Shown here one piece after another: positions 28,111 through 30,911 of a stretch of DNA of 39,534 bases. The DNA is from Chitinophagaceae bacterium (GTDB lineage: Bacteria > Bacteroidota > Bacteroidia > Chitinophagales > Chitinophagaceae): the NCBI GenBank assembly GCA_947456025.1, contig CANGQQ010000004.1, positions 1 through 39,534 of the forward strand, written 5' to 3'. The position numbers were made by a program, and so were the translations under genes. The notes below the pieces were generated by a model. It did not search any database. It saw nothing but the letters and a program-made list of their open reading frames with translations, and was not told the origin of the DNA. Position 1 is the first letter of the stretch, and every line of letters starts with the position of its first letter.

Positions 28111-28118
28111 TAGATTTG
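28111..28118 (+). promoter_or_regulatory. -7 box TAGATTTG for prfB
   Basis: Exact TAnnTTTG, 6 nt before ATG 28125. Confidence 0.5.
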
Positions 28119-28124
28119 CAATCT

Positions 28125-29220
28125 ATGACACAGGAAAAATTAAATGATATAAGGGACCGTATTCTCGTCCTGAGGAGGTTTCTTTGACGTCGAGAGCCGA
28201 CAACATAAAATAGCAGAAGACAAGCAACTTTCACTCAGTCCCGGTTTTTGGGACGACAATAAGCGTGCAACAGAGATTCTCAAAGAAATCAAGAATAACG
28301 AGTATTGGATTGAATTATACAATGCAACCAATACCGCAGTAGAAGACTTTGCTGTGCTTTTTGAGTTCTGGAAAGCAGGTGATGCAACCGAGGAAGAGAC
28401 CCAGGAAGCCTATAACAAAGCAATCGCTGCCATTGAAGATGCGGAGTTTAAAAGCACGTTGAACCAGCCGGAAGATGAATTATCGGCTGTTTTGCAAATC
28501 AATTCCGGTGCCGGCGGCACAGAAAGTCAGGACTGGGCCCAGATTCTTGCGCGCATGTATCGTATGTACGGCGAAAAGCAAGGATGGAAAGTGACGGAAC
28601 TGGATTGGCAGGATGGCGATGGGGCAGGTATTAAAACCTGTACCTATCAGTTTGATGGTCCCTTTGCCTATGGTTTTTTAAAGGCCGAAAGCGGGGTACA
28701 TCGTTTGGTTCGGATTTCTCCTTTTGACAGCAATGCAAGAAGGCACACTTCTTTTGCAAGCATTTTTGTCTATCCGCTGGTAGACGATACCATTGAAATT
28801 GAAATCAAGGACAGTGAAGTAAAAATGGAAACAGCCCGCAGTGGAGGAGCCGGTGGGCAGAATGTAAACAAGGTTGAAACGAAAGTGTTTTTAACGCATA
28901 TCGCTACCGGAATTACAGTTGTATGTCAAACCGAACGTACACAGCTTGGTAATCGTGAAAAAGCCATGCAGATGCTGAAAAGCCGTTTGTATGAAGAAGA
29001 ATTGCGCAAACGCAATGAAATGAAAGATGCTGCCAACTCCAACAAGAAAAAAATTGAATGGGGTAGTCAGATACGGAGTTATGTATTTCATCCCTACAAA
29101 ATGATCAAGGATCATCGTACTGATTACGAAGTAGGGAATGTACAACCTGTAATGGATGGAGAACTGGATGGATTTATTAAGGCCTACTTGATGAGCGAAA
29201 AAGAAGCACAGGCCGGTTAA
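28125..29220 (+). CDS. prfB: Peptide chain release factor 2, with programmed +1 frameshift: join(28125..28184,28186..29220)
   Basis: Frame-0 start [20 protein letters not shown] then TGA at 28185-28187 in context CTG AGG AGG TTT CTT TGA C; +1 frame continues [28 protein letters not shown]...; [15 protein letters not shown] motif. Confidence 0.95.
28173..28188 (+). promoter_or_regulatory. prfB recoding signal: AGGAGG internal SD + slippery CTT TGA C
   Basis: Same spacing as the classic RF2 site (SD, 3 nt, CTT TGA C). Confidence 0.93.
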
Positions 29221-29279
29221 TGATGACAGGCACTGGCTCCGAAGCTTTTGTACGATTCTTCTAAACTAAACTTTGCTAT

Positions 29280-30911
29280 ATGAATCTTGGTTATTTCAAC
29301 TACCCCTTGCCGGTAAACGAGCCGGTATTGTCTTATACACCGGCCTCACCCGAAAAAATACGTTTAAAGGAGGTTTTGGCTGAATTGAAACGTACAGAAG
29401 CCGATATTCCCATGTACATCGGAGGCAGAGAAGTTCGTACCAATAAAAAGATGGCAATCCATCCGCCGCATGAAATCAATCATACACTGGGCTATTTTCA
29501 TGCCGGTGAAGAAAAGCATGTTTATCAAGCCATTGAGGCTGCCCTTGCGGTAAAAGAACGCTGGTCGGAAATGAGTTGGGAGAACAGAGCAAATATCTTT
29601 TTACGTGCTGCCGATTTGATAGCAACCAAATATCGTCCTTACATAAACGGCACGACCATGTTAGGACAAAGTAAGAATGTATATCAGGCCGAAATTGATG
29701 CAGCCTGCGAGCTCATCGACTTTCTTCGGTTTAATGTTCATTTTCTGAGTGAAATTTACAAACAGCAACCTGTAAGCGGATCCGGCATGCACAATCGTAT
29801 GGAGTATCGCCCATTAGAGGGATTTGTGCTGGCCGTTACGCCCTTTAACTTTACAGCCATTGGAGGGAATTTACCAACCAGTGCAGCTATGTGCGGAAAT
29901 GTGGTTGTATGGAAATGTGCGAATACACAGGTTTACAGTGCACAAATGTTCATGCGTATTTTAAAAGAAGCCGGATTGCCGGATGGGGTGATCAACCTCA
30001 TTTATGTCGACGGTCCCACGATCGGGAAGGTTTGCTTTCAACATCCTGATTTTGCAGGTGTACACTTTACGGGCTCAACCGGAGTCTTCAATCACATGTG
30101 GGAGACGATCGGTAAAAACACAGGGATTTATAAAACCTATCCACGTATTGTGGGTGAAACCGGAGGGAAAGATTTTGTAATTGCACACAAAAGCGCCCAT
30201 CCGGATGTTGTGGTTGCTGCATTGCTTCGCGGAGCATTTGAATACCAGGGACAAAAATGTTCGGCTGCATCCAGAGCTTACATCCCATCCAATATTGCCG
30301 AAGAAGTCAAAAAGAAATTAATTGCCGGCGTTAAGAGTATGAAAATGGGAACGGTAGAAGATTTCTCTAATTTCATCAATGCCGTTATCGATGAAAAGAG
30401 TTTCCTGAAAATTAAAGGATACATCGACAATGCAAGAAAAGATCCCAAAGCAGAAATATGGGTAGGAGGGCGTTGCGATAAACGGGATGGCTATTTCATA
30501 CAACCTACCGTCATTGAAGCAAAGTCGGCAAAATATGTAACGATGTGTGAGGAACTGTTTGGACCTGTGCTCACGGTGTACGTATACCCTGCAAGCAGCT
30601 TTGAAAAAGCGTTGGACCTGGTAGATTCAACCTCTCCCTATGCGCTTACAGGAGCTGTGATTGCACAAGATCGGGAAGCAGTGGAATTGGCGACCCGACG
30701 ATTGAAAAATGCAGCAGGGAATTTCTACATCAATGATAAGCCCACCGGTGCCGTTGTTGGTCAGCAACCCTTTGGAGGTGCCAGAGCCAGTGGAACCAAT
30801 GACAAGGCCGGCAGTATGCTGAATCTATACCGTTGGTTGAGTGCCCGTACCATTAAAGAAACTTTCAATCCTCCAACCGATTACAGGTATCCCTTCCTTG
30901 CCGAAGAATAA
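29280..30911 (+). CDS. pruA: L-glutamate gamma-semialdehyde dehydrogenase (1-pyrroline-5-carboxylate dehydrogenase)
   Basis: ALDH fold: VTPFNFTAIGGNLPTSAAMCGNVVVWKCA, FTGSTGVF, ETGGKDFVIAH, EYQGQKCSAASRAYIP; DKPTGAVVGQQPFGGARASGTNDKAG. Confidence 0.94.
   Translation: MNLGYFNYPLPVNEPVLSYTPASPEKIRLKEVLAELKRTEADIPMYIGGREVRTNKKMAIHPPHEINHTLGYFHAGEEKHVYQAIEAALAVKERWSEMSWENRANIFLRAADLIATKYRPYINGTTMLGQSKNVYQAEIDAACELIDFLRFNVHFLSEIYKQQPVSGSGMHNRMEYRPLEGFVLAVTPFNFTAIGGNLPTSAAMCGNVVVWKCANTQVYSAQMFMRILKEAGLPDGVINLIYVDGPTIGKVCFQHPDFAGVHFTGSTGVFNHMWETIGKNTGIYKTYPRIVGETGGKDFVIAHKSAHPDVVVAALLRGAFEYQGQKCSAASRAYIPSNIAEEVKKKLIAGVKSMKMGTVEDFSNFINAVIDEKSFLKIKGYIDNARKDPKAEIWVGGRCDKRDGYFIQPTVIEAKSAKYVTMCEELFGPVLTVYVYPASSFEKALDLVDSTSPYALTGAVIAQDREAVELATRRLKNAAGNFYINDKPTGAVVGQQPFGGARASGTNDKAGSMLNLYRWLSARTIKETFNPPTDYRYPFLAEE

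Follow-up and report, generated by a model that had tools for sequence, protein, structure and literature searches.

The prfB gene in the window (a 39,534-nt stretch of DNA from a Chitinophagaceae bacterium) almost certainly contains a standard autoregulatory +1 programmed frameshift, in which the internal Shine-Dalgarno (SD) motif, AGGAGG, most likely has a stimulatory role that is partial or conditional. The coding sequence of release factor 2 (RF2) is split by an in-frame stop codon that is read by RF2, and the body of the gene lies in the +1 frame. All elements are located on the forward strand. ORF0 (28125..28187) comprises 20 codons and an in-frame TGA (28185-28187), and its end reads CTG AGG AGG TTT CTT TGA C. 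The AGGAGG (28173..28178) is positioned 3 nt 5' of the slippery codon, with TTT as the spacer (28179..28181), and is followed by the slippery CTT (28182-28184), the TGA and C 28188, the latter three forming the shift site proper (28182..28188). The RF2 body (28186..29220) runs in the +1 frame from GAC 28186 to TAA 29218-29220 and consists of 344 codons plus the stop, giving a joined product of 364 aa. Profile searches identify this frame as prfB (NCBIfam TIGR00020, 4e-139, over the curated cut-off), and the genome contains a single strong prfB match. The sequence-only reading, in which an ATG at 28125 leads to the TGA at 28185 and a +1 shift at CTT joins the RF2 body, agrees exactly with the sequence and coordinates, and the programmed frameshift it proposed is backed by this complete anatomy and by comparison with relatives. 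It had also stated that the mechanical list of open reading frames splits the gene; that list indeed misses the gene start, showing only 28354..29220 with a GTG start.

The hexamer by itself is not rare, with 14 copies in the window against 9.1 ± 3.1 expected from shuffling. By contrast, the composite motif RGGRGGNNNCTTTGA is unique both in the window, where 0.01 occurrences are expected, and in the complete 2.37 Mb genome. AGG accounts for only 7% of the arginine codons in the window's genes.

A sequence upstream of the gene, TAGATTTG (28111..28118, forward strand), matches the Bacteroidota -7 promoter element TAnnTTTG and is predicted to be the prfB promoter box, 6 nt before the ATG. Transcription starts 4-5 nt from the Bacteroidota promoter box (PMC6847099), a spacing from which a leader of 1-2 nt is predicted here. 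In 79/117 family-level sites a TAnnTTTG box precedes the prfB ATG by 4-8 nt, and on the same spacing the prfB mRNA would be almost leaderless (predicted leader, 0-4 nt). Among 272 starts sampled in the window's genome, 15 have such a box 3-9 nt upstream, compared with 0-1 for scrambled boxes. An earlier in-frame ATG (28089) was rejected as the start codon, as it lies upstream of the predicted box and the family start is at codon -20 from the internal stop in all 117 family-level sites. Several relatives that have no frameshift share the same prfB promoter box, and the near-start promoter is therefore a trait separate from the frameshift. Downstream of prfB, on the same strand, lies pruA (L-glutamate gamma-semialdehyde dehydrogenase; the two genes span 28125-30911), an arrangement shared by 56 of the 80 relatives retrieved. 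Only 3 of these 80 have the divergent dnaG next to prfB, the flanks of some loci being short.

Upstream regions of prfB were collected from same-genus, family and order relatives, together with those of 80 named genome records, most of them Chitinophagaceae. The collection amounts to 191 prfB loci in total, with some overlap, and yields 160 distinct frameshift sites after one false call (L066) was dropped. The source organism is close to UBA1931 and UBA1953; its genome and that of one congener (G005) measure ~2.4 Mb, compared with 3.9-5.1 Mb in the other same-genus genomes. The slippery codon is CTT in 160/160 sites, and the hexamer is AGGAGG in 126/160 and GGGAGG in 10/160, the remainder being weaker. 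In the 117 family-level sites the nucleotides of codons -4 to -1 hardly vary (third-position entropy, 0-0.2 bits), and in the relatives' sites the third-position entropy is near zero across AGG AGG TTT CTT GAC, whereas other conserved arginine codons of the leader vary among CGC, CGT, CGG, AGG and AGA. Where the internal stop is missing, the relatives retain the protein but use codons such as CTG CAC CGC, and none of them has AGGAGG. The nucleotides of the site are thus under selection, and because of this near-invariance and the absence of AGGAGG from frameshift-less relatives, the SD appears to be retained with the frameshift and not for the amino acids. No conserved downstream stimulator was seen in these sites: only a few codons past the stop, third-position entropy is back at the background level, mostly 1.3-2.0 bits. 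The internal stop is TGA in 156/160 sites and TAA, which is also read by RF1, in the other four (L011, L032, L053 and L096). Such variants are rare but known, since TAA makes up 1.4% of internal prfB stops across bacteria (PMC12421855).

The SD is not strictly needed, as frameshift sites with weak hexamers (AAGAGA, AAGCGG, AACCAC, GGGCAA and AAGCAC) persist in six or more lineages; AAGAGA is the hexamer of Ferruginibacter-like relatives (L151 and L157). In an RF2 tree of 111 sequences, some joins of which fall on long branches and are uncertain, the starred branches force a minimum of four changes for loci lacking the frameshift and of six for weakening of the SD. The persistence of sites without a good SD in several lineages favors an alternative explanation, in which the frameshift works independently of the SD and AGGAGG is kept for an Arg-Arg codon or tRNA effect, or for pausing at rare codons, with no anti-SD pairing. 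In F. johnsoniae, moreover, Naeem and colleagues reportedly found an SD-less natural site to be just as effective as the native site. However, in most relatives the hexamers that replace it are SD variants rich in purines, GGGAGG still pairs although it codes for Gly-Arg, and the predominance of AGGAGG suits pairing with the rRNA better than a codon effect. This explanation is accordingly considered unlikely, although it is the only one of the alternatives to retain appreciable weight, and a stimulatory SD is preferred.

A second alternative, in which AGGAGG is the ribosome-binding site for an internally initiated, shorter RF2, would agree with the mechanically listed frame beginning at GTG 28354. 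However, this GTG is 176 nt downstream, inside the RF2 body, and the body frame contains no start codon at SD spacing; internal initiation would also leave the slippery CTT and the TGAC context unexplained, and it is rejected as highly improbable. A one-base sequencing or assembly error at 28185, which would make prfB a single uninterrupted frame and is conceivable in a fragmented assembly of 208 contigs, has a negligible probability and is refuted by conservation, the interrupted frame being found in all 13 same-genus relatives and common to the 160 distinct sites.

The setting of this programmed frameshift is a genome whose start codons are depleted of SDs. Anti-SD duplex energies were calculated over ~440 kb of this genome, made up of the window and a further 400 kb, with starts picked mechanically. 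The mean for 272 ATG starts is -0.57 kcal/mol, compared with -2.52 kcal/mol for internal ATGs and -6.08 kcal/mol for E. coli starts, which upholds the earlier description of the genome as SD-poor and is the depletion associated with anti-SD sequestration in Bacteroidia. These start-based energies were used because the genome-wide count of GGAGG-N4-9-ATG (308, against 245 for the reversed pattern) shows only a weak excess and is confounded by coding sequence. The prfB site reaches -12.6 kcal/mol, and the strongest of the 272 sampled starts -9.0 kcal/mol. None of the sampled starts is thus comparable to it, as the sequence-only reading had said of the starts it inspected, but elsewhere in the genome rpsU (AAAGGGGGTATAT before the ATG, -12.7 kcal/mol) and rpsR (ACGGAGGCATAAGCT before the ATG, -9.5 kcal/mol) carry strong SDs (jointly, L003 1480-1495 and L204 1405-1420). 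They are the only starts found in this genome to rival the prfB site.

Sequestration of the anti-SD in this organism is well supported by homology, in line with the link drawn in the sequence-only reading. The rpsU product, bS21, has Tyr54, a residue highlighted in the region of bS21 that contacts the sequestered 16S tail (PMC9976891), and both bS21 and the Bacteroidia-type bS18 match chains of the F. johnsoniae ribosome (7JIL). The window's assembly is without a 16S gene; CCTCC is present in seven same-genus 16S loci, all with GGAATACCTCCTTTT at the 3' end. In these congeners (L194-L200) the 16S 3' end reads GGAATACCTCC, while that of E. coli is GGATCACCTCC. The rpsU of the present genome has GGGGGTAT, matching AUACC, and covariation between the 16S end and the rpsU SD may possibly extend beyond the CCUCC core.

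The proposed mechanism follows the known RF2 circuit. When RF2 is abundant, translation would terminate after 20 codons; otherwise the peptidyl-tRNA at CTT would slip from CUU to UUU, so that the next codon becomes GAC (28186-28188). The anti-SD is probably sequestered by bS21, bS18 and bS6, like in F. johnsoniae, and AGGAGG is therefore most likely a partial or conditional stimulator, which might act when the 16S tail is freed during a long pause or on ribosomes that lack bS21. In F. johnsoniae the efficiency of the frameshift is reportedly about 7% and is said to increase upon mutation of bS21. A more elaborate and rather doubtful proposal is that prfB, rpsU and rpsR, as the few messages strongly complementary to the anti-SD of this SD-blind cell, make up a small SD regulon, in which frameshifting on an almost leaderless mRNA would report the level of RF2 together with the share of ribosomes whose 16S tail is free (e.g., those lacking bS21).

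A textbook RF2 frameshift in a bacterium that probably ignores SDs is a combination already described and studied in relatives. The frameshift is present in 523/726 Bacteroidia (McNutt et al., 2021; PMC8710568), and the same authors noted AGGAGGUAUCUUUGAC in F. johnsoniae and stated the puzzle of an SD in an SD-blind organism. How the anti-SD is made available, asked in the sequence-only reading with an implied novelty that is not supported, is thus a legitimate question but a published one (PMC8710568), and it is partly answered by experimental follow-up in F. johnsoniae, for which the articles that cite it give a low frameshift efficiency (Naeem et al., 2024, as cited in PMC12421855 and PMC13245932). 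The present site shares with F. johnsoniae and other Bacteroidia a perfect AGGAGG, a 3-nt spacer, CTT TGA C and a distance of ~20 codons from the start (PMC8710568); in both, the starts of the genome are SD-poor and bS21 is of the sequestration type. It differs from F. johnsoniae in its spacer, TTT (Phe) instead of TAT (Tyr), and in the predicted near-leaderless mRNA. The E. coli prfB also combines an SD-like element, a CUU slippery codon, UGA C and a +1 shift, but has AGGGGG and a UAU spacer; moreover, the E. coli anti-SD is free and most of its starts use SDs. The autoregulation of rpsU in Bacteroidia is a further case of a strong SD retained as an exception in an SD-blind genome, but it operates at initiation, through ribosomes without bS21, and not in elongation (PMC9976891).

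It has been suggested that a low demand for RF2 makes inefficient frameshifting tolerable (PMC12421855). This argument may not hold for the genome studied here, where TGA accounts for 59/287 sampled stops (21%), a threefold higher share than the 7% quoted for F. johnsoniae. The TGA usage, the repeated weakening of the SD with the frameshift retained and the predicted near-leaderless prfB mRNA are new but minor additions. A conserved internal SD in an SD-blind lineage offers a natural means of probing at what point in elongation the 16S tail is freed. To this the Chitinophagaceae and their order add natural weak-SD sites, repeated losses, TAA variants and a member with more TGA stops than F. 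johnsoniae, comparative material that could test whether low RF2 demand allows a low frameshift efficiency to be tolerated.
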